Assembly (NCBI GenBank): GCA_018970165.1
Contig: JAGWWZ010000014.1
Span: 1-44,289 of the forward strand
Length of the DNA: 44,289 nt
Direction of reading: 5' to 3'
DNA from: Planctomycetota bacterium
GTDB lineage: Bacteria; Planctomycetota; Planctomycetia; Pirellulales; Pirellulaceae
Numbering within the stretch: position 1 is the first letter of the stretch; every line of letters starts with the position of its first letter. Below, one piece after another: positions 1 to 21,132 of this stretch. The position numbers and the translations under genes were made by a program. The notes beneath the pieces are model-generated. The model saw nothing but the letters and a program-made list of their open reading frames with translations. It did not search any database and was not told the DNA's origin.

Positions 1-3000
1 CCTGGGTCAATGACGAGGGACCCATCCTGGCGAGCGCGATTCAGTACGGTCAATCCACCGGTTTGCAGTGCGCCGGGCAGTTTCACGTTATTGTCCGTGA
101 AGGACCTGTCGTCGCGATTGAGAACGACGACTAATTCAAAGGGAGTCGTTGGGGAGCTGCGGCGATAGATCTTGCGCGAGACGTAATCGATCGTTGCAGC
201 AGGGATATTTCGCAAACGCACCGAGCTGGTTTGACCAGCTGGCACACGGATCTGCGTGCTCGCACTGGGAAGGCTCTCTTGGCCGAACCGATCTACGTAT
301 GTGACCAAATACTCTAAATCCAAATCTGCAACTGGAGCGGAAAACCCAGTTCCGGGCACAAGCTCCACGATCATCAGCGTGGTATTCGGCCCAGCGATTT
401 CGTTCAGTGGTCCGCCGGGCGTTCCAGCAATCACGAAGTTTTCGCCGAAGACGATGCTGACCTCGGTATCGTCGATGCGAGCATGCGTGGTCAACGTCTT
501 CAGTGGCTGACCTGGGAGGGTGTCCACACGCATGAACAGACCATTGATGGTATTTCCCGTGATCCTGTTGTTGTAGATCGCGGGTCCAACACGTCGATAG
601 TCGGGAACAAAGCCACGACCGTTTTGATAGCGTGGCTCGGTGAATAGGGTCTCCTCGAAGCTGTTTGGATCGGCGCTGATAGCGGAGTCGGCGCTTTGAG
701 TAATGGTATTCCCTAAAATCAATGGGCGAGACTCGGCTAACTCAATCGGGCTGGTTACCTTGGCCTGTGCACCCGCACCGACCAAACCACCACCGAATGT
801 CATTTCAGCGTTCGAGATCGTGTTCAAGAAGACACCTTCCCGTTCCCAATCGAAACGACCTTGAGAACGATCGAAGTCGTTACGAATCTCGATGCCCCCC
901 CAATCGCCCGGCTTCGGAACGGTAATCAGAACATTGGTATCTTCGCCGAGAGACTGATCGGTGTAGGAAGTGAAGTAGACCGGCAGTTGCGGAGTTCCAA
1001 GCACTTGAACGGCTGCCCCCGAACGATCCACCGTCCCATCGCTACCGACAAGGAGACGGGAGTTTCCAAACTTCAGAATGGAGCCAGCGTCGATCATCAA
1101 GGTGACGTCCTTCGGGACTTCCAATCGATCTCCGTCGGACAGCACACCGAAATCGCCTGTTCCAATTTCATAGGCCTTAACGGAGGTCGGGTTGGTCTTC
1201 GCTGCCTCAACCCCAGTCAGTCGAATGATGTCGCCGCCAGCAGCCTTGCTGATGGCTTCGGAGATGGTCTTGAAGGGCTGCTGAAGTGTGCCGTCGCTGG
1301 TCAATCCCGTGTAAGACTTATCAACAACCAGAGTACGCGGAGATGCCGACATCTCACCGTAACCGCTTACAGCGCGGAACCAGAAGTTGAAATCACCACC
1401 CGCGATACCATCTCCGTCACCGTCGAGCGCAGAACCGATAGCGTTGGAAGTGGAGGTCTGTTCGGCGATGCCTCTGGCGTTGGTCGCCTTGAATTCAAAA
1501 CGGAGTTGATAACGCCCTTGGCTTGTCGCGCCACTGCCGGTATCCAGAACTCTCGGGTTGTTATCTTCGTTCCCCTTGCCGGTGACCGAGACGAAATACT
1601 CGCCCGAAGTGAGAGGAACATCGATGAACGAGTCTTGGCTGAAATAGTTGTTGTTCGCAGCCACAATCGACAGCTCGCCCGTCGCGGCATCACGTCGGAG
1701 GAGTGTCAGGTGGGTGTCGAGATTGCTCGAATCGTTGAGTCTCTCTGCGACGGTTTCCAAGCGAACTTGCCCACTGGTGTTCGGTGCGATCACAAACCGA
1801 TAGAGGTCGACGTCTCGATTGTCCGGCCTCAAAAGATGCTGGCCATGAATCTGGTCGATGGTCCCTGGGAAGATCTGCTCGAGCGGATTCGAGGGGGAAT
1901 TCAGTCGCGTACCGACGATGCCACCGGCGGCATTGGTAGTACCCCCGTTGCTGTCGCTTCCCATGATCGTACCGGCTGGCAGATCAAACGTATGGTCGAA
2001 TCCGAGCAAATGCCCGATCTCGTGCATCGCGGTATTGAAGAAGCTGAATGGGCCTTGTTGGGCTGCTCCTGAGGGTACCGTTTCCGCACCGAGCGGCTTT
2101 TGGGAGACCCCAAACCCGAACGCGTTGTCCCAAGGTTCGCTGTTGTCGAGGATCACCATATCCCATAATTGCATGGGCATATCGGGATTGGGAACCTGGC
2201 CAGCAGCTCCGAGAACATCACCCGGACCACTGATCAAAGTTCGAATCGGGATCATATCGCCGACGACGATGTTGAAAATCCCCGGTGCAGTTGGGCCAGT
2301 GTACTCTTGGAAATCGACACCGAGATACCTGGAATAGAACTCAAAAATCTCCCGCACTCTTTGCTTCTGTTCACTGTTGATCGAGGTGAACAAACGCCGT
2401 CCGTTGGAGTCAACCCCGTAGGACTGATTCTCCATGAAGTTGTATCTGATCGTACGAATTTCTGGGTCGCCATCGGGTAGGAAATTGGGATCCCCCCAAA
2501 TCTGGTCTGGGCTCCGCAGCGAACGGTCTTCCTGAATGTCGCGATGCCCCGGTTCCTGACTGCTGCCAGGGAAATTCAAAAGAAGCGGGTCGGACACAGT
2601 ACGAATTTCCTCTTCGAAAATCGTAGAGAAACTGCCCGTGATCGCGCCAGCGCTCATATCTATCGCGCCCGCTAGGAATCCCGCTGGTTCGGCAGGCACC
2701 ACGGGATTGAGCGTTGCACTGTAGGCGGCTCCGTTGAGCTCCGAACCGATGCGCAGTCGATACGTGCCATCCCCGCCAAGCATGTGAATATCCCTTGCGA
2801 AAGTCAGAGTGACTTTGGCCGGGACACGGGGAGTCGCAGCAGGATTGCCTGGGTTGAACGATATGCCTGTTGGATTGAAGATAATATCATCAAAAGGCGT
2901 CGTGCTATTGCCCGTGAAGATCAAGTTGTAGAACTGAGGATCGACGACCGAAGGATTGCTGGTCGACATCGGATCGTACACAACGGGGCGATCATAGAGT

Positions 3001-3650
3001 TCACCGTCGTTGAAGTAGACATCGATGGTATCACGTGCTTGAGACAGTGTCCCATCCACCGCACGAGTGATGGGTTGCGGAACGATCGCAGAGATCTTCG
3101 AACCAAGTTCGAGATTGAATGAGTAGGTATCCCGATCGGTGAGAGTCCGACGGGGTACGAGAGGATCGTTATTTACATTCCGAACGGCATTTGCCTGCCC
3201 AACACCAAGTATCTCGACTCGGTACAAATCGTCGGGAAGGGTCTCGGGAAACCGAGCGACCACAACTCTTCGGTTGGACGGATCCTCGAAATCCAGATAC
3301 GCGGGCGTAACAATGACGTCGGTCAAACCACCCGGCCCGAATACACCATCACCCCCCGATCGAGAGATCACGATACCGTTCCGGAGCGTCGACTGACGTA
3401 CATCGGCTCCACCGGCGAACCGGAAGATCAACTCCCTAGGAGCCTCGTTAAGAGTATTCGACCGGGTTGTCGAGAGAATCTCGCCCGTGTTCGGGGCGAC
3501 CGACAAGAGTCGGAAGTCCGTATCGAGCACACTGCCGGCCATCACCTCTCGACGTTCCAAGTTTTCGCAGAGGAGGTTGCGGAACCCCTTGCGTCGCTTT
3601 GCCTTGAACGAACGACTTCGGTGAAGCGATCTTGATTCATCAATTCCCAT
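1..3650 (-). CDS. Giant secreted matrixin-like surface protein, paralogue 2 (partial, C-terminus outside the window)
   Basis: The frame is open from the ATG at 3650 to the left edge, giving 1216 codons with no stop. The N-terminus is basic and carries the LEPR-XLL-like motif LCENLERREVMA, matching that of the neighbouring giant gene. A beta-sandwich-like region follows. An intact metzincin zinc site, HEIGHLLGFDH, lies at residues 543-553 and suggests an extracellular protease. After it come a pre-peptidase C-terminal (PPC)-like segment, a DUF1565/beta-helix-like region (VDKS...GT...PFKTISEA, then VYFTSYTD and DWGGIEIRND), and a fibronectin-like module just before the edge. The ATG is preceded by CCAAGGTCCGG, and the bases around it closely resemble the start of the upstream giant gene, which supports this start. 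The gene lies 103 bases downstream of its paralogue in the same direction, so co-transcription is plausible. Surface location is inferred from the family. Confidence 0.85.
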   Translation of the reverse strand, partial: MGIDESRSLHRSRSFKAKRRKGFRNLLCENLERREVMAGSVLDTDFRLLSVAPNTGEILSTTRSNTLNEAPRELIFRFAGGADVRQSTLRNGIVISRSGGDGVFGPGGLTDVIVTPAYLDFEDPSNRRVVVARFPETLPDDLYRVEILGVGQANAVRNVNNDPLVPRRTLTDRDTYSFNLELGSKISAIVPQPITRAVDGTLSQARDTIDVYFNDGELYDRPVVYDPMSTSNPSVVDPQFYNLIFTGNSTTPFDDIIFNPTGISFNPGNPAATPRVPAKVTLTFARDIHMLGGDGTYRLRIGSELNGAAYSATLNPVVPAEPAGFLAGAIDMSAGAITGSFSTIFEEEIRTVSDPLLLNFPGSSQEPGHRDIQEDRSLRSPDQIWGDPNFLPDGDPEIRTIRYNFMENQSYGVDSNGRRLFTSINSEQKQRVREIFEFYSRYLGVDFQEYTGPTAPGIFNIVVGDMIPIRTLISGPGDVLGAAGQVPNPDMPMQLWDMVILDNSEPWDNAFGFGVSQKPLGAETVPSGAAQQGPFSFFNTAMHEIGHLLGFDHTFDLPAGTIMGSDSNGGTTNAAGGIVGTRLNSPSNPLEQIFPGTIDQIHGQHLLRPDNRDVDLYRFVIAPNTSGQVRLETVAERLNDSSNLDTHLTLLRRDAATGELSIVAANNNYFSQDSFIDVPLTSGEYFVSVTGKGNEDNNPRVLDTGSGATSQGRYQLRFEFKATNARGIAEQTSTSNAIGSALDGDGDGIAGGDFNFWFRAVSGYGEMSASPRTLVVDKSYTGLTSDGTLQQPFKTISEAISKAAGGDIIRLTGVEAAKTNPTSVKAYEIGTGDFGVLSDGDRLEVPKDVTLMIDAGSILKFGNSRLLVGSDGTVDRSGAAVQVLGTPQLPVYFTSYTDQSLGEDTNVLITVPKPGDWGGIEIRNDFDRSQGRFDWEREGVFLNTISNAEMTFGGGLVGAGAQAKVTSPIELAESRPLILGNTITQSADSAISADPNSFEETLFTEPRYQNGRGFVPDYRRVGPAIYNNRITGNTINGLFMRVDTLPGQPLKTLTTHARIDDTEVSIVFGENFVIAGTPGGPLNEIAGPNTTLMIVELVPGTGFSAPVADLDLEYLVTYVDRFGQESLPSASTQIRVPAGQTSSVRLRNIPAATIDYVSRKIYRRSSPTTPFELVVVLNRDDRSFTDNNVKLPGALQTGGLTVLNRARQDGSLVIDP

Positions 3651-3696
3651 ATTGACCGGACCTTGGAACGATAAGGTAATTTAATAAGTGTGGTCT

Positions 3697-3733
3697 ACAG
3701 GGGGCGACGAGATCTCGCGAGCGAGGTCCCTGT
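3697..3733 (-). other. Hairpin between the two giant genes
   Basis: In the 103-base gap after the TAG of the complete giant gene, ACAGGG (read on the minus strand) pairs with CCCTGT about 25 bases later. The loop contains two further perfect palindromes, CTCGCGAG and CGAGATCTCG. An AT-rich stretch (TTATTAAATT) follows, but there is no clear U-tract. It could be a partial terminator, an mRNA processing site or a protein-binding site. It is not a canonical intrinsic terminator. Confidence 0.4.
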
Positions 3734-3753
3734 CACCCTATCATCATCTACGC

Positions 3754-6700
3754 CTACTCGCCAAACAAGTCCGCGAAGACTTGATCTACGAGGTCTTGAC
3801 TGCCGCGAGTCCCGTTAGAAACGATGTCATCGGCAAGTTTGTCAAATTCGTCATCCTCGGCAGGCGTTCCGAAGTAGACCCATCGGTCGGCTTCAGAGCC
3901 TTCATCTTCTGGCAACTGAGGCCCAAAGGGCCGAGCTACCGCTGGATTGCCGACACTTCTCGCGATTCCTCGACCCGAGGCATCGTTTTCCATTGGACCA
4001 ATCATCGCTTTGCTGAGTCCGCGACCGATATCCATGGACCACCCCAACAAGCGTCCGTCGGCTGCTGGACCGCGTCCTTCTCCCTCACCTTCCGGAGATC
4101 CATTCATCCCTCCGGAGTTGAGGAAATTGATCAGGGTGAGGACATCCAGCGGATCGACAAAGTTGTTCCCGTCAACGTCCACATAGTCAGGCGGTCCGGG
4201 CAATCCCGCAACCGAACCGGATCCGCGGCTGTTGAGCAAGTTGATGATGATCAATGCATCCAATGGCGACACCCATCCGTCCGCATTGACGTCGTTCGGA
4301 TTCGCCGGATTTTGGAATCTGGCTGGGAGCCGTTGACCGAAGGTGATGGTTACGGTCGCCTCGTTGCTCACGCCACCAAATGCATCTCGAGCACGGTACC
4401 TGAACGTGTCGGTATCACCTGGCTTAACAAGATTGTTGGGATCTGGGTTTGGCGTGTAGACAAATGTTCCATTTGCGTTCACAACAACGGTTCCCTTGGT
4501 CGGAGCGACGGAGAGTTCCGCTGTCAAGGTATCTCCATCTTTGTCCGTATCGTTGACCAGAACACCGTCATCGTTGCTCGAGGTTGTCGAACCGGTTGCG
4601 TCGGTTGTCCGGAATATCTCGCCCAAAGGAGAGCTGTAGGAATCGTTGCGGGCAACCGGGTTGTCGTTGACCGAAGTCACGGTCAGCACGAACGCATCCG
4701 ATACCGAAGCGCCGGAGAGATCGCGAGCGGTGACTGAGATGTCTGTGGTTCCGAACGCATCGGGCTTGAGCGTGACAGTCAGTCTGCTTCCCGTTATCGC
4801 GACCGTGGCGACGTTGGTGTTGGAACTCGAAGCGGTGTACGTCACCACATCACCATTGATCTCATCCGGATCGAAGAAGAATTCTGGGCTCAGCTCAATA
4901 TTGAACGGTGCGGAATCCTCATTGACGGTTCTATCCGGCAAGGGCTTGACCAAGCGTGGTGCATCCGGTGCCGGAGTCACCTGAACAGTCAGCGTGTTGG
5001 TTACGAACAGTCCCGGATTGGCGGAGTCTGTAGCGCGGATCACGATCACTGCCGTTCCATTCTGGTCCGGTTTGGGCAACAGACGCAACTCACCATTCTG
5101 GATGGTGGGCTCGATCAAATTGGTGTTGTTGTTCGACACAACCGTGTAAGTCAGAACATCTCCGTTGCTGGCGACATCTGGGTCAAAGAAGTAATCCGAC
5201 AGGAGGAGAGTCCGGGCTGGAGTTTGGTCCTCCTGCATCGTAACGGTGCCGAATTCCAGCTTCTTCCTCGGGGCATCATTGACGGGACGGACCGTGACGT
5301 TGACTGTCCCTTGCGAAGATTGCGGATCGAAAACCGTACCGCTGAAACCATTGTCCGTGACGACGTAGAAGAACGTGTCGGTGCCATGGAAGTCCTCGGG
5401 AGGCGTATACCTAACTTTGCCGACGAAGAATTCAACCCTGCCGCCACGCGCACTGGTCGACACAACATTGGTGAAGGAAACCGTCTGCCCTTGGCCAGCG
5501 GGGGGTGGCAAGCGTTCGTTGTCTGGTCCAGCCGAATCGCCCGCGATAAGCACAAGCGGATCGATTTCGATCGCGACATCTTCGTCGGTGCTGGCCAACT
5601 TGGGTGTCGTAATTGGTGGATCGTTCTTGTCCGCCACGTTGATCGTGATGGTTCCTTCGGTATCTCGCGGTTCCAATACGGTACCGGTAAACACCGGCCC
5701 CGCATCCCTGATCCGATAGGTGAAACGATCCACTCCCGAGAAGTCGGGTTTGGGTTTGTAAGTGATCTTGCCTGCGTTGAACGTGATGGTTCCTCCACCG
5801 ATGGACGTTGCATCGACATCACGGATAAATACGGTTTGACCAGCGTCGATCTCATTCTGAGGACCAGGTGCAGAAACCGCAAGAATTTGAGTTTCTTGAA
5901 TATCCAGAGTGGCATCTTCGTTGATATTGAAGGTCAGCGGACTGACGATCGGCGGATCATTCACGGGTCGAACCGTAATGGTGACCGTGGACCGGGTTAA
6001 CGAATCGAAAACCGCATCTGCTGCTAGGTAAACGAACGTAGTCTCGCCGAAGAAATTATCTGCGGGAGTGAATTCGAATGTACCGTCAGCCCGGAAAACG
6101 AAAGACTTGGTAACTGCAGCAGGGGGTTCCGTGATGATCGTCGCATTGAGCGGTCGACCATTGGTATTGATATCGTTGGCGAGAACGCCGTTGTTGAATA
6201 CGGAACCGTCGTCCAATTCAGGTGGGAAATCGAGCGGATCGTTCGCATTCAAGCTCCCTGTGTCCTCGAATAGGACATAGCTGTCGTTCACACCCACCGG
6301 AGGCGTGCCCGGAACCAGGGTAACGCGGTAATCCTCGACTTCTCCATCAAGAGCTAAACCGGTTGGCAAAAGGTTGCCGGATGTCGACACGCGGAATCGT
6401 GCAAATGATGGGGTATCCACAGTGAAATTGGGGGCCGTTGCTGGAACACGAACCTGGAAGGTGCGAGTGAGATTCAACGGATCGAAATTAACGTCGGTAA
6501 AGATCTGCTCACCGGGATCTGACCAATCGCCATCGGAATTGAAGTCGATCCAACCGTTGAGTACTCCTGGAGCACTCATGGTCACCGTCACCTGTGTATC
6601 AACGTTCTTGTTGAAGATCGGAATCCCGGTGCTGCCGTAATCGTTCCGTTGGAACTTGAACGAGACGCCGTCATCGCCGCTATCTCCGTCAGCCAGCGGC

Positions 6701-9700
6701 TGCGGCTTGGCTTCCGTTTCAGGACTGATCGAGCTACCAAGTCTAAGTGAACTGCCGCTCACCACGTGCCGAGCTCCGTCGTTGCCCTTCAGGGTCGGGT
6801 AGCGTCCGGCGGTGGTACTAACAGCATCGGGAGCATCGCCGAAGTCGACGACTACGCCAGGCATCAGAATCTTGAACTGTGTCTCGTTGTTGATTCGATT
6901 GCTCTTAAGCGGGTTCCCCGCAATGTCTTGGACTCCTCGCAGGAAGAAACTGCTGATGCCGTCGCCGACGTTGATAGCGTTTTCCACGAAGAGGGTGGAT
7001 CCCGCACGAACCTTGGCTTGCAGGGTCGTCCGCCCTTCTGCAGCCGCCTTGTTAATAGCCGCAATCATCGCCTGACGCATCTGCTCAGGGGTGAAAGCGG
7101 CATCCTGTATGAACGGCACGGCTACGGATCCACCGGGAACTCCGAGCTTGCGCATCGATCGCGCATTGTCGAGCGTGTAAACAAATTCGGAGCTATCGCG
7201 CAGCTTCAGGCCTTCGGGGGTAATGTCCGAATCCAGATTCAGAACCGACGACTTGATGGTCGCCTGCATCGTTTCATACAGACGCTGTAGAGAGTCCGAA
7301 TTTACATAGCGAATCGGCGTGAACGCAGGGTTGCTGGCACTGTTGATCGTGAGATTGACGAACTCAAAGGTGACCGATCGGGTTCCATTGTTGATCACGA
7401 AGAAGTCGCCGTCCTGAGGAAGCCCTCGTTCGGTGGTCAGACGGCTGTTGAGGACGTTTACAGCACTGGTATCGAGCAATCCCAAATCGACTTTGCCGAT
7501 GCCGGACGCTTGAGCGAAAACGCTCAGTCGAGTGACCGAATTGATCGCCTGCACAATCGCCACGACCAAGTCGCTTTGACTCGATGCATTCGTGTATCGG
7601 ATGATCTCGTTGCCCGATGTTGAAGGTCCGCTGAAATTGCTGTCGAATTCAAACGTCACGGTCGTGCCATTGTTGGTGATGGTGAATACCGAGTTATCGA
7701 CGAGATCGACGCCACCGCGGGCTGGAATCGCCAACTGCAAGGTTCCAAAGACCTGAAGGACCGTATTCCCCTGAACGCCTGGTCGTCCGGACAAATCGAT
7801 CGACGGCGCACCAGCTACAGACAATCCGTCGCTAGGCAACCCACCAACGACAACACTACCATTGCCAAAGTGTTTGGGGGTCAACCCGATGCCGGCACCG
7901 GTGATCGCCGTTGCCAAGGCCTCACCGATTTCAGACTGGCTTTGGGTGTTTGTGAAAGGCACACGCACTCGGCCTGCAGCGATGGTGTTGTTATTATCAA
8001 ACTCGAATACGGTCGATTGGCTACCACCGTTACGAGTGATCGTAATGAAATCTCCATCTTGAATGGTTCGCGAAACGCCTACGACTTCCAAACGGGTGTT
8101 GATCAAATCAACACTTCCAGTGTCGGGCAATCCGAGATGAACAAGATCGTTTCCAACAACATTCGGGTTGACACGAAGACTCGACGAAGCGATCGCTGAT
8201 CGCAAGGCTTGTGCAACTTCCAGACTGGAACTCGCTGACGAGATATTAACACGCACATTGCCGGGTTGAACCTTCGCGATGGGGTCGGAATCGAACTCGA
8301 AGACCAAAGCAGTGCGACCATCGGTGACACTGAAAGTTTGGCCATCAGAAACTCCACCAACACCGCTACCTTGCGTCGGGACTCGCAGGCCAAGGGTCTG
8401 TGTAGGCTGAGTTAGTGAAGGAGCGTCAACAGTCTGAACGGAGGCTCCGAGAGAAGCCGCGATAAAGACGTCGTTCGAAGCTAACTTCCTAGCAACTACG
8501 CCGCTAGTAAATGAACTGTTGATTGCAGCTACAATCGCATCAGCTACCTGCGACTTGGTCGACAGAGAAGTGAATCGGATGATTCCTTCCGGCCGAGTGA
8601 TGAGGGTGTTGTTGTTGCTGTCAAACTCAAAATCGCGGCGTACGCCTGCCAGTTGGACGCTGAAACGTTCGCCATCGGTGACTCCGCCCGCACCACCGCC
8701 AGCAATAGGCAGATTTAGTTGCAAGCCGATCGGTAGTTGCAGCCGGAATCCGCTGTCGTACTCAAACGTCACGTTCGCGCCGGTTGAATCCCGAATCACG
8801 AACGTGTCCCCATCGTTCAATTTGTTTCCAGCAACAGCATCGATTACGAACCGATCTTTGTTGTTGATCGTGATGTCGTAGACCCGATCGTTGCGCCAAA
8901 CACCAGCCAACGGCTTGAGAACGATTTCGTTGGTTGTCGTGTTGTATGAGAAGACGTAGTCGATGCCTTCGACCAGCAGTCGATTATTCTCCGTGATGGT
9001 AATCACAGCACCAGCAGGTCGAATTCCCGATGCGCTTCCGACGACCGAACTGTCGTCGATGCCAGTGCCACCACCAAGATTGGCGGACTCGAAACCATCC
9101 TGCAGTTGAATGCGGAATTCGGGGTACACTCCGGATGTCAATTCGATGACGGACTCGGTGGGGTCAACGTCCACGCGACGAGCATCGTTGTCCACGGGGC
9201 TAACTGAAATCGCGCTAGGGCCGATGAAATCAGCGTCGTCGATCGCACCTCGATCCTTGAACACGCTATCGCCCAAACCACTCGGTGGGGCAACGTTAGG
9301 GTCGTCAGCTCGGAAGAGACTGTAGAAATCGCGATCCGGAGCCAGGACAGGGCTCGGGGCGATCCCGACGGCTCCCTTGACCGCTTCCAAGCCTTGTCGT
9401 TCCGGTAGCGAGTCGATCGAGCTATCGATGATCTGCGACTGGGCTCCCGGCAAGAAGTTGCTTCCCGGGAAGTTCACAAATAACTTCTCGCCGCCGCCAG
9501 CGATAAAGTTAAAGTCGGAACCGGTGTTCGGAACATTCGTCGGACCGACTTCGATCGTAAGTCCGAGATTCGTTACCGGGGTCGCTGGCTCCATAAACTG
9601 ATAGGTGTTGCCACCGACAACCACCGCAGAGGGACGTTCCGAAGGCATGTTGAAACTACCTCGGAAATCGGACCCAAGGAACGTCGGCCTTTCTTCGACG

Positions 9701-12700: not shown

Positions 12701-15700
12701 GAAGATCTCCCACCCACGTAGGTCGAATTCAAATCACCCACGGTGAAGCTGTACGTTTGGGACCCATTAATGCCGCCAAACGACGGGAGTTGCCCTGCGA
12801 CGCTGATCGCCCCCTTGGAGGTCATGTGCAGAGGACCAAGATTGATAATGTCCTCCCTCGGCGCGAAGAACGGATCGGAGTCGAGCATCCCCGAATTCGC
12901 TTCTCCCGTGAGAGGTGATTGGTAGGGCAGTCCGAGGGTGTGAACACCGTTCGTCGCATAACGAATATCGGCAAACCGAACCGTGGAACCAGGAAACTCT
13001 TGCTGGTCTCGCAACCGCACTTGAACGGTGTAGGCTCCGCTGGTCAGACCCGCAACAGAGTTCTCAACGTCGACTCCCTTGCTGCGAATCCGGAAGAAAA
13101 AGGTGCTCTTGGCTCCTCGCACACCCGGCAGAACCACTCTTAAACCTGCCTCTCGAGGGTTGGATGTACCGTCATCCTTGATCAATCCAGACGCGTTGCG
13201 ACGCGAAGACGCCCGATCGCGCTGCACGACAGGATTAACCGTCTCCGGCACCAGGGATGGATCGCGAACTATCAACGTCGGATCAAGCTGTTCGGCAGTG
13301 CTGTCATCGCTACGAGCCAGAAGATCGCCGTTCGCGTTAAGGATCTCGATGATGCTGTCGAGCGACCATTCGGTATTGTCGATATCAAACCAAACCTCGG
13401 TTCCAGCCGTGCCGACGAAGCTGTAAACATCCTGATCAGCAGGTTCGCTTAGTACACCGTTGACAACCCAACCCAGTACCAAGTTCTCGTCGGAAGAGGA
13501 CGGATTGGGAGCAAGTTCACCCAGCAACTGTGCTGTGACCGTTGCATCGTTCACACCTGGGGCACTTACATTGGGGCGTTCCGATTCCAGGACGGCAATG
13601 ACATTTCGATCGTTGCTGAAGGAATCAAACACCAAGCTGCGCCAATCGCCAGGGCGAGGAACAGTCGCGATACCATCGTTGTTCGTGTCCGTTTGCGGCA
13701 ATCCATTCGGTTGCGTGCCCGCTCCTACACTGTCATCTCGGAAACTGGTGAAGACGACCGGGAAACCTGGCATACCGAGAACCTGAATCGTTCCCCCAAC
13801 ACGATCGGTGATACTGCTATATCGACCTGTTGCCGTGAAGCCGGTCCCGCGTTCATGATCAAAGTTCGAGCCTTGACCTTCCATCTTGATCACAAGAGAC
13901 TCATTAACCGCACTCTGAAGCCGTAGACCTCCAACATGCTGAAGATTGCTGACCACGATCGAGTCGAACAGGACGTGAACAATGTCCGTGTCATCCCAAA
14001 CGCTATCAGTGGTTAGGACATTGCGAGGTAGATCTCGCACCGAGAGATCCTCTTCCACGCGATTGGAGGTGGTTGAATCGGCTCGAATTTCCAATCCGTT
14101 GATGCTGTTGTTGAATAGGCGGTTGCCTCGGAACAGCGGTCCGCGATTGGCATCCAACGTAAGATCGCGATCCACCATTCCGGTCTGGCGACCACCATCC
14201 CCTCTCAGCTTCGCATCCATGGAGTTGGCATCGATGGTGATGGCGACCCCCAGATTGTTTTGGAAAACGTTGTTGAGAAACACCGGTTGTGCACCGCGAA
14301 CGAATACCGTCGAACCACGGCTACGGTTATTGACGAACGGGTAACTCGCATCGTCGGGAGGACCGTCAGGATAATTTTCGTTGGCCGGACGCCCTAAACG
14401 ATCAACCGGCCCTTGACCTCCCATGCCATTAGCATTTCCCTCGAAAACCGTATTAGCGATCCGAGCATCTGCTTGTTGAATCTCGACGGGACTGAAGGCC
14501 TTGAATGTACCCTCGATTTTGGAAATCCCACCGGAACTTGCGATCACTACGTTGTCGAGACTGATACTTGCTCCGGGAGATGCATAGATACCGCTCCAAT
14601 CGCCTGGCCGTGTATCGGTTGCCCCATTGCGTCCGTTGTTATTGGTATCAAAGGTTCCACCCGCTCCGAAGCGATCGTCTTTACGACTCGTCATCACGAT
14701 ACGGCTGCCATCGATTCCCTCGGCCAACAACTGTGTGCTATGCCCAAGCTCAATGCGGGCCCCATCCAGCTTGATAACTGCACCGGGATCGATTGCCAGA
14801 GAAGCATCCAAACGAGGACGAATGTTCCCGAAGCTCTCCAGACTCAGGGCCCGTCCGCCACTGACCGTAAAGTCGTCGGTGAACGAACGAATAGCGGGGT
14901 TGGTGATTTCAGCGACTTGGAAGAACGGCCCCGCCCCATTGTTTTGGCTGCGGTAAATTCGGAAACCGCTGTAGCCGGTCTGGATGAAAGGCAAATTGTT
15001 TAATTGCAAGGTTCGGTTCGTAAGGGTTGTTACACCGACGGCTGTTGGCGATGAAACAATTCCTTCGCGTCCCATCGAGTCGATCATCACTATTCGATAG
15101 GTGTAATTCCCCAACGGCAGAAAGCCGCCAGCGAGCGATGTAACGGTAACTGCAGATGCATCGGGCCGATCTCGCAACAACGTTCCTTGAGGATCGCTTG
15201 GATCAGCAAGCGATGCACCGCGGTCGAAGTAGTTGCTGGTTGTACCATCCAACTCCGCGACGAGAACATATGGACGATTTGGGCCATCATTTCGATACAG
15301 ACGTCTGGAAACATATCCGCTACTAACGCCTGGTAAGCCCGCGATCCTAACCGCCGTCTGACCAGATCCCAGAGTGAGTGGGGGCGTAGGATCAGAAGGA
15401 GGACTCTGATAACCGTTGCTGTCCACAAACGTGATTTTGTAGCGATAAGTGCCACCGGTTAGCGTTCCACCCGACGCTCCTTGCAATGTGATCAAATTGG
15501 CTGGAACTACGAATGTGTCCAGCAATCCGCCACCAGGATTTCCCTGGATGGAAATGTTTTCGGCGATAACGTGCACCACATCGATATCGTCGAAGCGACC
15601 AGGTACGGACAATTGTCGTGTCGTCCCCCCAGCAGGTGTGGAGACTCGAATAAACATCCCGTTGACCGAGTTGTTTACCAAGTGATTTCCATGGACCTTG

Positions 15701-18700
15701 GGACCGACTCGGTCGTAATCGGGAGTGAAAGAGCCATTGCGTTGAAAACGAGGATCACTGAAGAGCGTTTCCTCAAAGCTATCCGGGGTCGCGCTGATGG
15801 CTGAGTCAGCAGCCAACGTTATCCGGTTGAACGTAATGGTCGGCCGCATGTCGGTGATTTGGACCGAGTTGACCGTCTGCTGTACAGAGTCGATCACGAC
15901 CGAACTCGAGCCACCGTACTTCATGTCCGCAAAATTCACGTACTGTCGGAAAATCCCTTCGTCCTCGAGATCGAAACGGCCTACCGATTTATCGAGATCG
16001 CGTTTAAAGAGGATTCCGCCCCAATCTCCTGGTGCGGGGGTTGTCGTAGGCTGGTAGTTGTCGAAGCCGGTACGCTCGTCAAGCCACGAGGTGAAGAAGA
16101 CATGCCCCGTTGCGATGCTTCCATCGGTGTTGCGAATGGGATTGCCCGACGAATTGAGGAGCTTGGGTGTTCCGAGAACCTGGAGAGCGCCACCGCTCCG
16201 ATCGACACCGATGGTCGAACTTCCCACACCGATCCGTGCTCTTCGCAACTTGAAGATCGCACCGGCGTCCACCATCACCGACACACCCTTGGGCACATCC
16301 ATCGTTTGCCCGTCGGACAACACAGGTACGCCAGCCAAGCCCAATCCGATCTCGTATGCAAAGTTGTCCCCGACAGTCTCCAGTCGACCATCGTTACCGC
16401 CATTGCCAACGATGCGAACGATATCCCCCGGCATCGCCGCAGCAAAAGCGTTGGGAACACCGCTTCCGGAAATGTTGTTGAAGGGACGCAGTCGAGATCC
16501 ATCGGCGTTCGGGCCCGCAGATTTGTCAACGAAGATCGTCTTTCCTTCGATGTCGATCACCGTCAGATTCGACGACAATTGAACTAAGCGTTCTCCTTGC
16601 AGAGTTACCTTGGACAGGTTGGCTGTTGCCGTAACCCCTGTGCTGCTCGTTTGAATGTTGATTGCATTGGCCAACGCCGCTGCCAGTGCATTTGCGTCGC
16701 TGGTAAGCGAGTAGGTTATGCGGGTATTGCCTGTTCCAACCACAGGATCAGAACTAAACTCGAAACGTCGGACCTCGCTATTGGCCCCAGTGATCGTAAC
16801 GATCCGTCCTTCGAGATCCGTGGAACCTCCCGCGTTGAAACTCAGCACGCGATCAAGCGGTCGGGTATCAAACCAAAAATTGTAAACACCGCCAGGAGTG
16901 CCATCGGCATCTCCATCCAAGGGGACCGATAGATCCAAAGGCTGATTGGAAGCATCGCGGATCGTGTCTGTGCCATCGGTCTGCGCGCGGAAGGTTAAAC
17001 GCAGATCGTATTTCCCTTGAGTACGACCGCCAAATCCGGTGTCGGAAATGGTTGCATCATAGCCATCGTTCCCCGAAGCAGAGATTCCGATATAGTAACG
17101 GCCGGACTCCAAGTTCATCCGAATCAAAGAATCCTTGCTAAAGTAATCATCGTTCTGGGCGATCAGATCGATGCTCCCTCCGTTGAGTACAATCGGCGAG
17201 TAGGTGATATCCCGATTACCAAGAACTGTCGCCGGATTGCCGGACTTGAAGTTGGGGGTGACCAAGCTACTCGCCACCGGGTCGCTTGTTAGAGCGGTCA
17301 GGAAATCCTCCAAAGTCGATTCGCTTCCTGCCGTCGAATTCAGATCCACAACGATAGCGTTGGGAGGTGCGTTGGGAAATGTGAAAACGCCCGGCACTTG
17401 GCCTACACCGCGATTGCTTCGTGTGATAAACACCTGCAAGTTGTTCCCGAGTTTGCCGGGAGCTACCGCAGTGAACTCTACTTGAACTCCCCCACCAGCA
17501 CCGAGGTTGGAAACCGCCTTGGCTTGCGTTTGCTTGAACAAAGCTAAACGGGTATCGAGCGGACTGCTGTTGGATTGTCGTTCTGCAAGGGTTTCCGCAA
17601 CGAACACACCTTGCCGAGAAGCTCCCGATGCAGCAAACGCGACATCGAAACGATAGAGGTCGATATCGCTGCTTTCGGGCCGATGCAGGAAGCTGGCTCT
17701 CAGAACGTCTAAATTGCCCGGGAAGACTGGCTCAAAGTTTCTGTCCGAACCGCCGTTGATGAAACTGTTGTCGAAATTCATGAGGGTCGACGGGTCGGAG
17801 TCGCCCGCATTAGCCAACCCGAGCAGCAACCCAATACTGGCCGCCGTAGCTCTCGTGAAATTTTCTCCGTAGTTGTCATTCCAAGTATTGTCTGCGGAGA
17901 AAACCGCCAAACCATTTTGGAAGGTTGGATCGATACGAACGCCAAAGAAGTTGCTTGTTCGGATCTGCACATTCGCACCGGTGAGAACTCCCAAAGTGCC
18001 TAGCGCCATCGTTAGGCCACTGTCAGGCGTTTCCACAAACTGCACACCGATACGGTCTGACCAGAGAGAAAATGCTTCTCGGATCCTCGCCTTTTGCTTC
18101 TCCGTAATCGAATTCGACTGAGCAACCGTTCCAACGGATCCGTAATTGGTCTTGAAGTTGTAATAGACGGTTTGAATGCCGGCGACACGGTCACCGGTGA
18201 AGTTCGGATTGAGATAGTTTTCGAATGCCTCCGGCACGCGTCGGGTACCTGGATCGTTGTTGCTTCCAATCAAATCGAGCGCATGCGCCTCGGGATCGAT
18301 TTCCCCCGTCAGCATCAAGCTACTTTGGGGAATCAAAGTCGATCCAATGATGCCGAGGTTCTCAGCGGTGTCGAAACTCGAACCTCTCTCCACGACTGAC
18401 ATGTTAGCGGGTTCGGAAGGAAGTACCTCGCTGGTGCCGATGCGCAAACGGAAGCTGCTCTTGCTACCCCCCCGCCTCAGCTTGTCGATATCGTCTCCCT
18501 GGAATTTCAAGGTGACCGTATTGGCCGACGCATTGTAGGTCGCAGACAGCGGCAACAACACAAAATCGTCGGTGTTGCGAACGGTGTCCAACGTTTCGAT
18601 GAGTCGATAGAATCGAGGGTCCTCGACACTGCCGGGAACAGGAGCGCCAAACGCATCGTTTTGAACAAATATCTTCTCGTCGTCAAAATACACGACGATC

Positions 18701-20826
18701 GTATCCCGAGCTTGCTGCAATTGACCGGATGAGTTTCGCGTTACAGGTTGCGGCACCACACCGATAATCTTCGAACCCAAGTCCAAACGAAACTCGATAG
18801 TGTCTTGACGAGTATTTGGATCGCGAGGCGTAAACAAATCGCCGTCGATATTTCTCAAGCCGGTAACGCCGCGTGTCGCATCATCGAAACCAAAGATTTC
18901 CAAACGATACATATCATCTGGAAGGTTCTCTGCGAATCGGAGGGTAACCTCGTTCTCGTTCGGAGTGTCCCCGATGATCACAGCACCGGGAACGATAATC
19001 TGGTCATTGTTCGCACTCAACTGAATCGGCGAGAAGGTGGGGTTCACAGCCCCAAGCAATGTTGTTCGCAGGCCACCGTTGATACGCGCTGTCAACTTGC
19101 TGGCTACCGGAGAATTGGTAGCGTTGATCAAACCGACCAAGGCTTCCGCAGTTATCTGAGAACCCGACCTGGAATTCAGTACAATCGAAACGTCCGATCC
19201 GTTCAAGCTCAACTGAGGTCCGACACCAGCGCCTAGGTCCGCTCGAGTGACCAACACTCGCAAGGGCTCGGATGCCAACTTCGACGTCAGTTGAATGTCG
19301 ACACGACCGTTGGTTCCAAAATCGGATGCAGCGCTTGGGAGACCAAAACTTCCATCTCCCCCTGCCCGAGTCACACGGATTCCAGAAACGGTCTTAGGAT
19401 CGATGACTTGCTTGTCATCAAACCGGAAAGTCAGTTCGCGAGGAGCTACGGTGCGGATGGCACCGTTCTCGATCAATTCACTGTTGTTTGGCTGAACACC
19501 GATCAAGACTGGACCAGGTCCGGAACTCGTCCCCAACGAACCTGAACCATCAAACACCAGATCATACAGCTGGGTCTCGCCGCTGGTGCCGTTGATCCTC
19601 AGATAATAAGTTCCAGCCTTCAACGCAGGATTCGAGATGATCTCTGCAATCCCGCTTGGCTGCGATCCTGCCGTAGCGACAACCTCCCCAGACAATCGCT
19701 CAATCTGTATCGAGAGATCTCGATAGAGTCTGGAATTGACGAGGCTAACCTGCCCTCCAACTGGCCCAATCTGATACTCGAAACCCTGCGGGATCACACT
19801 TATGCTGCGGATACCGGTGTCCACCAATGTGAAGAGGAAAAGATCGGACGATTCATTGCGATCGATCGAAAGGTTACTAATCGCGGACAACCCACGGGGA
19901 ATCACCCCTAGGTTGGTTGCTGCCGCTCGCGTATCGTTGTCCTCCAAATCATCGCCGTAAAGGGTCTGAATCCCCAGTACATCATCGTGCTGAGCTCCGA
20001 GAAATCGCAGCGAGAGGAATGGCTCCAACAACTTTGTTTGATCTGTTGGAGCGGAATGATCCAACCCCAAGCTGTGACCGATTTCGTGCATCGCAACGTT
20101 GGTGAATAATCGATTCTCACCCGCAGCACCATCGGAAGCGTTGGCGTAGCTGTTGTCCGCTGTGTCGAAGACGATATCGCCAGCGATTCCGAAAGAACCG
20201 CCGCCCGCAGGCTCAAAGGCATACGCGAGAACGTTGCCATTGCCATCGACGTTTGCCCCCCCGACTCGTATGTCGCCACGAACACCCTCAATCCCGCGGT
20301 TCGCACCGCCCGAGGGAGCACCGTCGTCCTGAGGCTCGTAGCGGAACGTGAGGCCGCTCGTCGCTCCCCAATTGTCATATGCCCGTTCAATCAATGGGAA
20401 CCAAGGCCGATTGCTCAACAAACCCGGTGCGGACCCGTACAAGCCATCCATAAAGCTAATGAAGTTGCTCGGAGCAGATCCCCCATTTCGAAGCAACACG
20501 GGCGTACCATCCGGCACGATACTCCAAGTGATCGTTGCAGGGTCACCCTGATTGGGACTCGGACCGCCAACAGGAACCGTCCATCGAGTCGGGAGGAGGG
20601 AGAAATCGTTCGATCCACCACCCCCACCGTTGCGTGTTTGGGCGTCGATCGTTCGCTGAAGTCCCGCCTCGAAGTTATCGATGTACACCTGGTCCGTCCC
20701 TGGTGCGAACACCGCCATCAGATCTCTGCGTTCGAGATTCTCGCACAGAAGCGAGCGGAAACTTGCTCGGCTTTTCTTGTGACGCGACTGACTGCGGTTT
20801 TTCAACCTGTTTTCATCAATTCCCAT
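3754..20826 (-). CDS. Giant multidomain secreted protein with matrixin-like protease, beta-helix, FEFD repeats, GEVED, cadherin-like and dockerin domains
   Basis: This is a single uninterrupted frame of 5690 codons. The ATG at 20826 (MGIDENRL) was chosen over the in-frame start 29 codons upstream because AAGGTTCG precedes it and the paralogue starts identically. Order, with approximate residues: LEPR-XLL-like motif LCENLERRDLMA (30-45); matrixin-like domain with HEIGHSLGLDH (247-257); PPC-like domain (300-415); a segment homologous to the start of paralogue 2 (from 430); a second metzincin-like domain whose zinc motif is lost (ASIGLLLGLAN, 996-1006); beta-helix blocks (1430-1750, 2010-2360 and later); two fibronectin-like modules (1775-1980); further PPC-like segments; about ten FEFD-type repeats, mostly 4000-4530; a GEVED domain (4650-4840); cadherin-like repeats (4840-5490); a pair of dockerin calcium loops (about 5510-5570); and an acidic tail. 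No classical Sec peptide, LPXTG or PEP-CTERM motif is visible. The likely role is an extracellular or cell-surface protease/adhesin. Confidence 0.9.
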   Translation of the reverse strand: MGIDENRLKNRSQSRHKKSRASFRSLLCENLERRDLMAVFAPGTDQVYIDNFEAGLQRTIDAQTRNGGGGGSNDFSLLPTRWTVPVGGPSPNQGDPATITWSIVPDGTPVLLRNGGSAPSNFISFMDGLYGSAPGLLSNRPWFPLIERAYDNWGATSGLTFRYEPQDDGAPSGGANRGIEGVRGDIRVGGANVDGNGNVLAYAFEPAGGGSFGIAGDIVFDTADNSYANASDGAAGENRLFTNVAMHEIGHSLGLDHSAPTDQTKLLEPFLSLRFLGAQHDDVLGIQTLYGDDLEDNDTRAAATNLGVIPRGLSAISNLSIDRNESSDLFLFTLVDTGIRSISVIPQGFEYQIGPVGGQVSLVNSRLYRDLSIQIERLSGEVVATAGSQPSGIAEIISNPALKAGTYYLRINGTSGETQLYDLVFDGSGSLGTSSGPGPVLIGVQPNNSELIENGAIRTVAPRELTFRFDDKQVIDPKTVSGIRVTRAGGDGSFGLPSAASDFGTNGRVDIQLTSKLASEPLRVLVTRADLGAGVGPQLSLNGSDVSIVLNSRSGSQITAEALVGLINATNSPVASKLTARINGGLRTTLLGAVNPTFSPIQLSANNDQIIVPGAVIIGDTPNENEVTLRFAENLPDDMYRLEIFGFDDATRGVTGLRNIDGDLFTPRDPNTRQDTIEFRLDLGSKIIGVVPQPVTRNSSGQLQQARDTIVVYFDDEKIFVQNDAFGAPVPGSVEDPRFYRLIETLDTVRNTDDFVLLPLSATYNASANTVTLKFQGDDIDKLRRGGSKSSFRLRIGTSEVLPSEPANMSVVERGSSFDTAENLGIIGSTLIPQSSLMLTGEIDPEAHALDLIGSNNDPGTRRVPEAFENYLNPNFTGDRVAGIQTVYYNFKTNYGSVGTVAQSNSITEKQKARIREAFSLWSDRIGVQFVETPDSGLTMALGTLGVLTGANVQIRTSNFFGVRIDPTFQNGLAVFSADNTWNDNYGENFTRATAASIGLLLGLANAGDSDPSTLMNFDNSFINGGSDRNFEPVFPGNLDVLRASFLHRPESSDIDLYRFDVAFAASGASRQGVFVAETLAERQSNSSPLDTRLALFKQTQAKAVSNLGAGGGVQVEFTAVAPGKLGNNLQVFITRSNRGVGQVPGVFTFPNAPPNAIVVDLNSTAGSESTLEDFLTALTSDPVASSLVTPNFKSGNPATVLGNRDITYSPIVLNGGSIDLIAQNDDYFSKDSLIRMNLESGRYYIGISASGNDGYDATISDTGFGGRTQGKYDLRLTFRAQTDGTDTIRDASNQPLDLSVPLDGDADGTPGGVYNFWFDTRPLDRVLSFNAGGSTDLEGRIVTITGANSEVRRFEFSSDPVVGTGNTRITYSLTSDANALAAALANAINIQTSSTGVTATANLSKVTLQGERLVQLSSNLTVIDIEGKTIFVDKSAGPNADGSRLRPFNNISGSGVPNAFAAAMPGDIVRIVGNGGNDGRLETVGDNFAYEIGLGLAGVPVLSDGQTMDVPKGVSVMVDAGAIFKLRRARIGVGSSTIGVDRSGGALQVLGTPKLLNSSGNPIRNTDGSIATGHVFFTSWLDERTGFDNYQPTTTPAPGDWGGILFKRDLDKSVGRFDLEDEGIFRQYVNFADMKYGGSSSVVIDSVQQTVNSVQITDMRPTITFNRITLAADSAISATPDSFEETLFSDPRFQRNGSFTPDYDRVGPKVHGNHLVNNSVNGMFIRVSTPAGGTTRQLSVPGRFDDIDVVHVIAENISIQGNPGGGLLDTFVVPANLITLQGASGGTLTGGTYRYKITFVDSNGYQSPPSDPTPPLTLGSGQTAVRIAGLPGVSSGYVSRRLYRNDGPNRPYVLVAELDGTTSNYFDRGASLADPSDPQGTLLRDRPDASAVTVTSLAGGFLPLGNYTYRIVMIDSMGREGIVSSPTAVGVTTLTNRTLQLNNLPFIQTGYSGFRIYRSQNNGAGPFFQVAEITNPAIRSFTDDFTVSGGRALSLESFGNIRPRLDASLAIDPGAVIKLDGARIELGHSTQLLAEGIDGSRIVMTSRKDDRFGAGGTFDTNNNGRNGATDTRPGDWSGIYASPGASISLDNVVIASSGGISKIEGTFKAFSPVEIQQADARIANTVFEGNANGMGGQGPVDRLGRPANENYPDGPPDDASYPFVNNRSRGSTVFVRGAQPVFLNNVFQNNLGVAITIDANSMDAKLRGDGGRQTGMVDRDLTLDANRGPLFRGNRLFNNSINGLEIRADSTTSNRVEEDLSVRDLPRNVLTTDSVWDDTDIVHVLFDSIVVSNLQHVGGLRLQSAVNESLVIKMEGQGSNFDHERGTGFTATGRYSSITDRVGGTIQVLGMPGFPVVFTSFRDDSVGAGTQPNGLPQTDTNNDGIATVPRPGDWRSLVFDSFSNDRNVIAVLESERPNVSAPGVNDATVTAQLLGELAPNPSSSDENLVLGWVVNGVLSEPADQDVYSFVGTAGTEVWFDIDNTEWSLDSIIEILNANGDLLARSDDSTAEQLDPTLIVRDPSLVPETVNPVVQRDRASSRRNASGLIKDDGTSNPREAGLRVVLPGVRGAKSTFFFRIRSKGVDVENSVAGLTSGAYTVQVRLRDQQEFPGSTVRFADIRYATNGVHTLGLPYQSPLTGEANSGMLDSDPFFAPREDIINLGPLHMTSKGAISVAGQLPSFGGINGSQTYSFTVGDLNSTYVGGRSSPTATFPVVIDIDYADGLNRAALQVDVLFDLDNNPATPGIPVNPLIRDRSFVVDDLPSPLSGNDVTDLSRGSVGTGDAFLSFIGTAELRRGTYQIVVTDRAPGQRRSGAYQMEIRVGDEIGTTLPRFFRGSYSTSIEFLPGLTIPSGSRVDVSDGARRLTFEFTTTPGVGFGNVPVLITPSDSPAVLAGKFRDAINQVFQQNLLGVRAADRDRNVSGTSNTVIDLFGNVEVFDTAGVFTVGATSGILRFDGFGDLNSNRDQGQFIISNSIVTKARDFAVWAAPAEKYYADGRAQQPLYVDGGFFQTQIPNYVGAPTLGGSYARNLPIDNLVPYGAAGDPRLVNAERAGVAPGLVVVNNIFESAGLGGLHIQGDTPTWRVIAFPGRADLTSDLSDPQQPDHSGGFINDGNIMDVTFGRQRVRFEFEDIAGAPTGAPAFGSGVVGGNGWAADNIPVYYREDGGSQYLRVPNTTPGYAADEVIKAIRDAMIGSVLTTNGTTQRISTWLEPQDDFVVGDPNDRRTWLWAESSMIVKGPQNIDPRAGAVVALPVGTFMAAPFVRALNNTIIGNDGNAGANAETVDTDTNDTIRGAAETFQGIGVNPLQYTVNGALLADPLFTGSSDVDFYKFRLEVGSRVRIDVDTSRGSTLDSALRLFDSNGIPQIISSGSDPTTVDNRSAPGEVSGLDPYIDFTATKAGVYYVAISSIGNTKYDPYSFADRRRGTTSGSYSLSVQVLKPEEFVIVVDNPASYADGETFTIQQVSDSGAGGTGNARTFEFTRNPGYNGPNVPVYIGPEFRVPDLARSIANAITVAGMANTQTLPNGIFGTASPLAPVSAIALGGHNGFDPTYGIVNPNNQFDFGINSGNERGAQLQPGLNRYPDWNEDLSPFDLAVVISEGNGVTSHSTSFLGHANQGFGHDRTMTLPFLPTIDRPVTARGNGTSEKFVVVRNAYTVTSSTGRRIGGRSNNNSLNQIIPETGIMVSGGASPTLLNNAFVNVQTPIVEERPTFLGSDFRGSFNMPSERPSAVVVGGNTYQFMEPATPVTNLGLTIEVGPTNVPNTGSDFNFIAGGGEKLFVNFPGSNFLPGAQSQIIDSSIDSLPERQGLEAVKGAVGIAPSPVLAPDRDFYSLFRADDPNVAPPSGLGDSVFKDRGAIDDADFIGPSAISVSPVDNDARRVDVDPTESVIELTSGVYPEFRIQLQDGFESANLGGGTGIDDSSVVGSASGIRPAGAVITITENNRLLVEGIDYVFSYNTTTNEIVLKPLAGVWRNDRVYDITINNKDRFVIDAVAGNKLNDGDTFVIRDSTGANVTFEYDSGFRLQLPIGLQLNLPIAGGGAGGVTDGERFSVQLAGVRRDFEFDSNNNTLITRPEGIIRFTSLSTKSQVADAIVAAINSSFTSGVVARKLASNDVFIAASLGASVQTVDAPSLTQPTQTLGLRVPTQGSGVGGVSDGQTFSVTDGRTALVFEFDSDPIAKVQPGNVRVNISSASSSLEVAQALRSAIASSSLRVNPNVVGNDLVHLGLPDTGSVDLINTRLEVVGVSRTIQDGDFITITRNGGSQSTVFEFDNNNTIAAGRVRVPFTNTQSQSEIGEALATAITGAGIGLTPKHFGNGSVVVGGLPSDGLSVAGAPSIDLSGRPGVQGNTVLQVFGTLQLAIPARGGVDLVDNSVFTITNNGTTVTFEFDSNFSGPSTSGNEIIRYTNASSQSDLVVAIVQAINSVTRLSVFAQASGIGKVDLGLLDTSAVNVLNSRLTTERGLPQDGDFFVINNGTRSVTFEFVNLTINSASNPAFTPIRYVNSDSLQRLYETMQATIKSSVLNLDSDITPEGLKLRDSSEFVYTLDNARSMRKLGVPGGSVAVPFIQDAAFTPEQMRQAMIAAINKAAAEGRTTLQAKVRAGSTLFVENAINVGDGISSFFLRGVQDIAGNPLKSNRINNETQFKILMPGVVVDFGDAPDAVSTTAGRYPTLKGNDGARHVVSGSSLRLGSSISPETEAKPQPLADGDSGDDGVSFKFQRNDYGSTGIPIFNKNVDTQVTVTMSAPGVLNGWIDFNSDGDWSDPGEQIFTDVNFDPLNLTRTFQVRVPATAPNFTVDTPSFARFRVSTSGNLLPTGLALDGEVEDYRVTLVPGTPPVGVNDSYVLFEDTGSLNANDPLDFPPELDDGSVFNNGVLANDINTNGRPLNATIITEPPAAVTKSFVFRADGTFEFTPADNFFGETTFVYLAADAVFDSLTRSTVTITVRPVNDPPIVSPLTFNINEDATLDIQETQILAVSAPGPQNEIDAGQTVFIRDVDATSIGGGTITFNAGKITYKPKPDFSGVDRFTYRIRDAGPVFTGTVLEPRDTEGTITINVADKNDPPITTPKLASTDEDVAIEIDPLVLIAGDSAGPDNERLPPPAGQGQTVSFTNVVSTSARGGRVEFFVGKVRYTPPEDFHGTDTFFYVVTDNGFSGTVFDPQSSQGTVNVTVRPVNDAPRKKLEFGTVTMQEDQTPARTLLLSDYFFDPDVASNGDVLTYTVVSNNNTNLIEPTIQNGELRLLPKPDQNGTAVIVIRATDSANPGLFVTNTLTVQVTPAPDAPRLVKPLPDRTVNEDSAPFNIELSPEFFFDPDEINGDVVTYTASSSNTNVATVAITGSRLTVTLKPDAFGTTDISVTARDLSGASVSDAFVLTVTSVNDNPVARNDSYSSPLGEIFRTTDATGSTTSSNDDGVLVNDTDKDGDTLTAELSVAPTKGTVVVNANGTFVYTPNPDPNNLVKPGDTDTFRYRARDAFGGVSNEATVTITFGQRLPARFQNPANPNDVNADGWVSPLDALIIINLLNSRGSGSVAGLPGPPDYVDVDGNNFVDPLDVLTLINFLNSGGMNGSPEGEGEGRGPAADGRLLGWSMDIGRGLSKAMIGPMENDASGRGIARSVGNPAVARPFGPQLPEDEGSEADRWVYFGTPAEDDEFDKLADDIVSNGTRGSQDLVDQVFADLFGE
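7220..8830 (-). repeat. Tandem protein repeats with FEFD motif inside the giant gene
   Basis: Six adjacent units of roughly 75-100 residues share a pattern. Each has 'DG-x-x-F-x-I/V', then FEFD or FEYD followed by S/N-rich residues, a strand such as I-R-F or V-R-V, and an amphipathic helix ending A-x-A-I-x-x-A-I. FEFD variants include FEYDSGF, FEFDSNNN, FEFDSDP, FEFDNNN, FEFDSNF and FEFVN. Four more isolated units occur earlier in the same protein (FEFSSDP, FEFTTTP, FEFEDIA, FEFTRNP). I do not recognise a named domain family for this unit. A beta-strand-plus-helix module is inferred from the pattern. Confidence 0.7.
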
Positions 20827-21132
20827 TGCGACGAACCTTAGAACCAATTTGCTTGGCGGGTCATAATGGCGGGTTAACTGCCGTTGAGATAACAGCAATT
20901 CCCCGCGAAACACTTGAGTTCGAGTATAATTGGACCGGATCGGGATGCAAATTTGTGCGGATCAGGCAAGACAAATCGACCAAAGATCCACCTTCGCTCC
21001 GACCAACCTCTCGTCTCATTTCCAGCCATAAGCAGCGCAAAACGTCTGTTTTTGCGGTTTATGACGTCGATTTTGATGCTGCTAGACAGGATTAGTTCCC
21101 ATAGAAGGGTCTGAAAGGAAAGTGAGAAAATT
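20827..21132. other. Divergent intergenic region between the giant gene and the LigD-like gene
   Basis: These 306 bases hold the start regions of two divergent genes. A promoter-like pair for the giant gene lies at 20923-20951. A 7-bp hairpin with a 7-base loop (CGCAAAA / TTTTGCG) lies at 21036-21056. A purine-rich Shine-Dalgarno-like stretch (AAGGAAAGTGAG) ends just before the TTG start at 21133. Short frames across the region show no recognisable protein and were not called. Confidence 0.6.
20923..20951 (-). promoter_or_regulatory. Candidate sigma70-like promoter of the giant gene pair
   Basis: Read on the minus strand, TTTGCA (20951-20946) and TATACT (20928-20923) are separated by exactly 17 bases. 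Transcription would begin near 20916 and leave a leader of about 90 bases before the ATG at 20826. The -10 element is good and the -35 is only partial, so this remains a prediction. Confidence 0.4.

Follow-up and report, generated by a model that had tools for sequence, protein, structure and literature searches.

The locus described here raises the question whether two giant genes lying side by side in a planctomycete genome belong together. Planctomycetes are known for giant genes (passages in PMC5177795, PMC2754498, PMC11573180), a familiar hallmark for which there is little explanation, and these passages list them singly. The answer that we favour, and that we hold to be about an even proposition, is that the two genes are an old paralogous pair, probably read as one transcript, exported, and building or decorating one surface structure.

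The window, by which we mean the whole stretch of DNA analysed, comprises bases 1-44289 (44,289 nt) of contig C41 from an assembly of 5.2 Mb in 330 contigs. The original prediction had placed in it a 5690-codon gene (A) followed after 103 nt, in the same direction, by a paralogue of at least 1216 codons (B), and the open frames confirm this arrangement (Table 1). An alternative GTG start would extend the frame of A to position 20913; the ATG start is preferred because of the conserved MGIDE start. A similar AAGGT-type box was seen by eye immediately upstream of both start codons, at 20827-20850 for A and 3651-3670 for B, and also before B of other genera.

Table 1. Coordinates of the features of genes A and B within the window
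Feature	Position	Strand	Basis or remark
-35-like hexamer TTTGCA before A	20946..20951	minus	TTTGCA or GTTGCA in 12/12 genus genomes tested
-10-like hexamer TATACT before A	20923..20928	minus	12/12 genus genomes tested
Gene A	3754..20826	minus	open frame, 5690 codons; ATG at 20826, stop ending at 3754
LCENLERR motif of A	20725..20748	minus	read in A frame
Peptidase_M10 domain, N-terminal module of A	19954..20391	minus	Pfam, E 6e-20
HEIGHSLGLDH in N-terminal module of A (residue 247)	20056-20088	minus	intact zinc site
Degenerate zinc site of A, residues 996-1006	17809..17841	minus	aligned to metzincin position of B
Beta-helix core of A	15523..16542	minus	fold search run with the B copy
FEFD module array of A, about 90 residues each	6973..8814	minus	HMM built here; further copies elsewhere, e.g. 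16543-16809
GEVED domain of A	6319..6561	minus	Pfam
Tandem-95/cadherin-like Ig domains of A	4342..6210	minus	Pfam and NCBIfam
Dockerin type I domain of A	4117..4296	minus	Pfam
C-terminal tail of A, ending FADLFGE	3757..3789	minus	C77 frame ends likewise
A-B intergenic gap, 103 nt	3651..3753	minus	96-112 nt in 14/14 genus contigs measured
Gap hairpin	3702..3738	minus	not followed by a T-run (by eye)
Gene B, first 1216 codons	3..3650	minus	open frame, cut by contig start
LCENLERR motif of B	3549..3572	minus	read in B frame
HEIGHLLGFDH of B (residue 543)	1992..2024	minus	intact; Pfam M10 E 4e-5, just over cut-off
Beta-helix core of B	396..1340	minus	structure model and fold search

Likely continuation of gene B

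Contig C77 of the same genome begins directly with a frame of 5290 codons, and the first 433 nt of this contig (L019:1-433) show 92% identity to positions 1-433 of the window, with both ends of the overlap exact. The 13 best-scoring relatives of the C77 frame in our set, itself aside, are all B proteins, and three of the four genes downstream of it match, in order, the stretch that follows B in the genome G018; the search found no match to these genes in any of 13 further relatives, although in several of them 5 kb or more of sequence follows B. It is very likely, from comparisons of this kind, that the C77 frame is the rest of B, which would then have about 6364 residues (1074 + 5290); the B frame of G013 has 6386. 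Since the first 1753 residues of the C77 frame are 56% identical to the B of G013 and the window part of B is 73% identical to that protein, the assembly possibly contains a mixture of strains or species. The overlap between C41 and C77, with its 8% difference, seems to reflect variation between strains at a point where the assembly broke.

Shared architecture and zinc sites

A blastp comparison of A and B gave colinear matches across the 1216 residues of B, the best with an E value of 1e-74, pairing A 1-45 with B 1-45 (58%), A 608-1102 with B 111-656 (31%), A 1217-1319 with B 658-758 (38%) and A 1328-1893 with B 687-1213 (36%). Provided that the C77 frame is the rest of B, the similarity goes past the N-terminal 1200 residues, this frame being matched by A 1910-2809 (38%), 3687-4103 (33%) and 4917-5690 (28%), through to the end of A. 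On that condition the ground named beforehand for rejecting the pair, little likeness past this N-terminal part, does not refute it. The start context, the LCENLERR motif and the beta-helix blocks that had been claimed for both proteins were indeed found in both, as an MGIDE start, the motif itself and a beta-helix core. The fibronectin-like modules also claimed did not hold up, no fibronectin domain being found in Pfam at E 0.01. What Pfam and NCBIfam recognise in A is Peptidase_M10, PPC, GEVED, cadherin/Big_9 (tandem-95 in NCBIfam) and Dockerin_1; in the first part of B Pfam finds M10, and the domains of the C77 frame are cadherin/Big_9, GEVED and Dockerin_1.

A metzincin domain common to the two proteins had been proposed as well, and this stands in part: each protein has an intact zinc site, but the sites are at different places, that of A being in an extra N-terminal module. 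Within the window HExxHxxGxxH is present in this module and in the core of B and absent at the core of A, where the alignment to the HEIGHLLGFDH of B shows that all three histidines and the glutamate have been lost. Where a Met-turn would be expected after the zinc site, B has TIMG, and the A of the window has LLEP where its relatives have LMEP (by eye). Across the A rows compared the core zinc site is absent in 19 of 19, 14 of them without any HExxH and five with HExxH only in the N-terminal module. For B, the core HExxHxx[GS]xxH is kept in 11 of the 14 genus proteins, those of G008, G016 and G024 being the exceptions, and it is missing in all five B rows from K23_9, CA13, Neorhodopirellula, Rubripirellula and Rhodopirellula rubra; six outgroup proteins (G025, G037, L050, L051, L113, L114) have kept it. 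The N-terminal metzincin module, of 330 residues, occurs in A of five genomes (that of the window, G001, G009, G013 and G019), in B of G024 and J080 and in a third gene of K23_9, and from this scattered presence it has moved between neighbours or between species.

These sites bear on the possibility that the giants act above all as secreted proteases or as enzymes that degrade polymers, the remainder of each protein being substrate-binding modules. Peptidase_M10 in both A and B would fit such a role, as would the model of the shared beta-helix core (about 315 residues, pLDDT 85), which resembles polysaccharide lyases and glycosidases such as 6kqs and 5olq (Foldseek, E at least 0.006). Right-handed beta-helix lyases, glycosidases and tail fibres make up most of the best PDB matches of the core of B, in the same range of E values (at least 0.006). 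However, Foldseek gave no match for the core that reached E 0.001, and a common beta-helix fold is no proof of catalysis. Moreover, both genes are kept although the core zinc site has been lost in every A row and in the five B rows from outside the genus, and we consider a mainly enzymatic role to be distinctly improbable.

The FEFD module seems to be an unnamed repeat without a clear relative in Pfam or PDB. It gave 11 matches in A, some of them partial, and seven in the C77 frame, and the A or B frames of more than 2500 codons have from 4 to 17, partials included. Its structure was modelled with a pLDDT of 95 and had no PDB match at E 0.001. At E 1e-10 the module was found in five of the 149 genomes sampled from the phylum, the window's own among them. 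Seven of 64 copies match Flagellin_IN at E up to 1 and there is a weak match to hook-associated protein 2 (E 0.017), so that a relation to flagellin-IN is a lead only.

Linkage, age and expression of the pair

Conserved linkage in related genomes, which the original prediction led one to expect, was found: the pair is present in all 14 genus contigs measured, and tandem giants occur in 26 of 51 family genomes. Of the 25 genus genomes in the set, 14 had the gap measured and three more records were read (L091, L095, L096), a large ORF ending just before B in each of the three. In nine further records, from three Rhodopirellula species, Neorhodopirellula, Rubripirellula, Aporhodopirellula, K23_9, CA13 and J080, a large ORF ends directly before B and all nine genomes have two giant frames on that contig. 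Counted from the first ATG of B, four genomes outside the genus have gaps of 65 to 110 nt, and K23_9 and J080 have gaps of about 190 nt; the order is A then B wherever it was read. No fixed upstream partner gene was found in the 14 relatives searched, in stretches of unequal length around the pair; MutS lies in the stretches of three of them.

In the family sample the core was found at E 1e-60 in 118 of 149 genomes. The 51 family genomes mentioned above are those with up to about 120 contigs, leaving out 11 matchless genomes and G216 (120 contigs, no match). Tandem giants with the core, defined as lying on the same contig and strand with less than 30 kb from core to core and not assigned individually to A or B, occur in 12 of the 26 genera of these low-contig genomes, and nine genomes have three in a row. 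Among the 25 genomes without a tandem, five have no such gene, 13 have one, and seven have two or more that are non-adjacent or on other contigs. At the level of the order, one or more such genes were found in 48 of 117 genomes (E 1e-40). In K23_9 (L119-L121) and in CA13 (L122-L125) B is followed by a third giant gene with the same orientation.

In a tree of the beta-helix core of 50 proteins, the A proteins form a clade of 19 rows (support 100/99) and the B proteins one of 18 rows (97/89), while four rows of a third type, C, whose genes lie elsewhere in the genome, group by themselves. Two of the 52 core matches (B of G001 and B of J080) were omitted as too short, J080 being represented by A only. 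Both clades include the window's genus, Rhodopirellula rubra, Neorhodopirellula pilleata, Rubripirellula obstinata, K23_9 and CA13, so that the split between A and B is older than these genera, which probably all belong to the Pirellulaceae. That the pair arose by recent duplication within this genome, or is an artefact of its assembly, could be suspected from the 330 contigs, from the break of B at a contig end and from the 8% by which the two contig ends differ. The same arrangement is nevertheless seen in the single-contig genomes G006 and K23_9, and the separate, well supported clades rule out a recent duplication, so that this hardly credible explanation is refuted. The dN/dS ratio is 0.05-0.10 in three pairs of A orthologs and 0.05-0.11 over the three A and three B pairs compared among relatives, where dS reaches about 1. 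Both genes are under strong purifying selection.

Co-transcription of A and B is likely, as judged from signals in the sequence. As expected of an operon, the genes share a strand, are separated by a short conserved gap and keep a constant order. One transcription unit is plausible given this gap of constant length, a promoter-like site that is conserved before A, and the lack in the gap of any candidate that stands out. The two hexamers before A are 17 nt apart, and the site is 93-96 nt from the start of A in the group of the window and 145-149 nt in the others; 12 genus genomes were tested, the contigs of G018 and G007 being without the start of A. Single scores of this site are weak (p 0.05-0.34), and it is credited for its conservation across the genus; it was not found in the five genomes tested outside the genus. 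In the gap, the best promoter candidates have p 0.19 or worse (14 genomes). Against one transcription unit, passages on R. baltica (PMC2754498) state that most essential pathways are not organised in operons.

The gap also holds a hairpin, at a similar place and with very different sequences among the relatives, with a mean z of -4.5 over 14 genomes; the window's own copy is weak against shuffles (z -1.07). In one set of five relatives none of 500 shuffles reached the observed number of cells paired, of cells changed on both sides, or the covariation score, and 28 and 392 of 500 reached two other measures. In the other set the covariation was not beyond shuffles, 78 to 236 of 500 reaching the observed measures. 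The sets were split by sequence similarity, and neither contained four of the 14 genomes (the window's own, G006, G019 and G024); G009 and G019 have identical gaps. The reading of the hairpin as a canonical intrinsic terminator is unsupported, there being no T-run behind it. Some 3' ends of B do show a T-run (G006, G018 and G002, by eye), and the mean z over 13 B 3' ends is -1.7. The hairpin could allow partial termination or processing, so that A and B need not share one undivided transcript.

A and B might instead be independent secreted giants that are merely neighbours, for example through mutual recombination, each with its own transcript and function. A hairpin in the gap could terminate transcription. 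The presence of the 330-residue metzincin module in A, in B or in the third gene, depending on the genome, would agree with this, as would the lack of adjacency in seven of the 33 family genomes that have two or more such genes. This reading, on the other hand, has to account for the constant short gap, for a gap in which no promoter-like site stands out and no T-run follows the hairpin (by eye), and for the order of A then B wherever it was read, and we find it somewhat unlikely.

Function and known giant proteins

We infer that A and B are located outside the cell. No hydrophobic signal peptide is evident on direct reading of the start sequence; the LCENLERR motif is LExR-like and resembles the planctomycete extracellular motif. 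The family PF07595, the planctomycete extracellular signal, gave no match to the N-terminus among the Pfam matches at E 0.01, despite this motif. Export and a role outside the cell would be in keeping with the LExR start motif and with the Ig/cadherin-like, PPC, GEVED, beta-helix and dockerin domains.

Dockerin domains were found in 13 open frames of this genome, which is 96% complete, and no cohesin match (PF00963) was found in it at E 0.001, so that the dockerin is unlikely to act through a classical cohesin. A short acidic tail with a common pattern ends 36 of 41 long frames, against a shuffle mean of 5.2 (highest 12), frames of up to 2500 codons and five named incomplete or broken rows being left out; this statistic is descriptive, as the pattern was written after the tails had been viewed and the rows are related. 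Five of ten fetched regions with other dockerins of the genome were read: three have a loosely similar stretch (L144, L146, L147), one has no tail (L143) and one is different (L139). The strongest candidates for a signal that sorts or anchors the proteins are the dockerin and the short acidic tail.

That the genes are kept side by side in many relatives suggests that their proteins work together at the cell surface. According to the old-pair reading, A and B would be transcribed together from one promoter before A, and the hairpin in the gap could set the ratio of A to B. The exported proteins would form or decorate one long surface structure for attachment or polymer capture, A being a scaffold in which the old core protease fold no longer cuts. 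B would have the same build with, in most genomes of the genus, one potentially active core metzincin, which might cut a substrate or process the assembly. A bolder proposal, which we consider rather improbable, is a giant Pirellulaceae surface structure in two parts (in some genomes three), with subunits of about 6000 residues encoded by one operon, a dead-protease scaffold and a protease subunit, and sorting by dockerin and acidic tail without cohesin; it could be the fibres or matrix seen on these budding bacteria.

The pair is of a known general kind, that of planctomycete giants, and was as such not found described. Passages on the giants of Fuerstia marisgermanicae (PMC5177795) and from a survey of huge proteins (PMC11573180) speak of genes above 5 kb and proteins above 5000 residues, and A (5690) and B (about 6360 if C77 continues it) exceed this size. 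The same passages name Big_9, Cadherin_4/5 and Dockerin_1, with the biggest contribution from Planctomycetota, and these domains are present in A and in the C77 frame. They treat single genes, domains and counts, however, and describe no tandem pair, A and B clades, lost zinc site or gap hairpin. Our literature search, which most subscription papers lay outside, found no description of this conserved giant pair.

The 'Planctosome' proposed for Nemodlikiaceae is similar, in the passages of its paper (PMC6461901), in that freshwater planctomycetes would have dockerins and metallopeptidases in a surface complex. It differs in that it needs cohesin modules, none of which were found in this genome, and its anchoring protein has 2210 residues. 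Giant1-5 of Apilactobacillus kunkeei, as PMC12863079 describes them, form a run of five genes whose extracellular products have 3000-8000 residues, several with beta-solenoid domains, and recombination takes place within and across neighbouring genes. They are from another phylum, the abstract names neither dockerin nor metzincin nor the FEFD module, and the likeness is one of description.

Kept across several genera under strong purifying selection, the pair shows which giants belong together, and one partner, A, has lost the core enzyme site and is kept for another reason. Its genome has many dockerin domains and no recognisable cohesin. The pair is a concrete target and indicates which giants to delete first.

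Frame breaks were seen in A or B of some assemblies (A and B of G019, A of G001 and A of G023; L072-L074, L061-L062, L078) and may be genuine or due to assembly errors. Rfam and tRNA scans of the window gave nothing, and at 42012-44288 there is a further metzincin-type gene (DUF4953/DUF5117), which is cut by the contig end.
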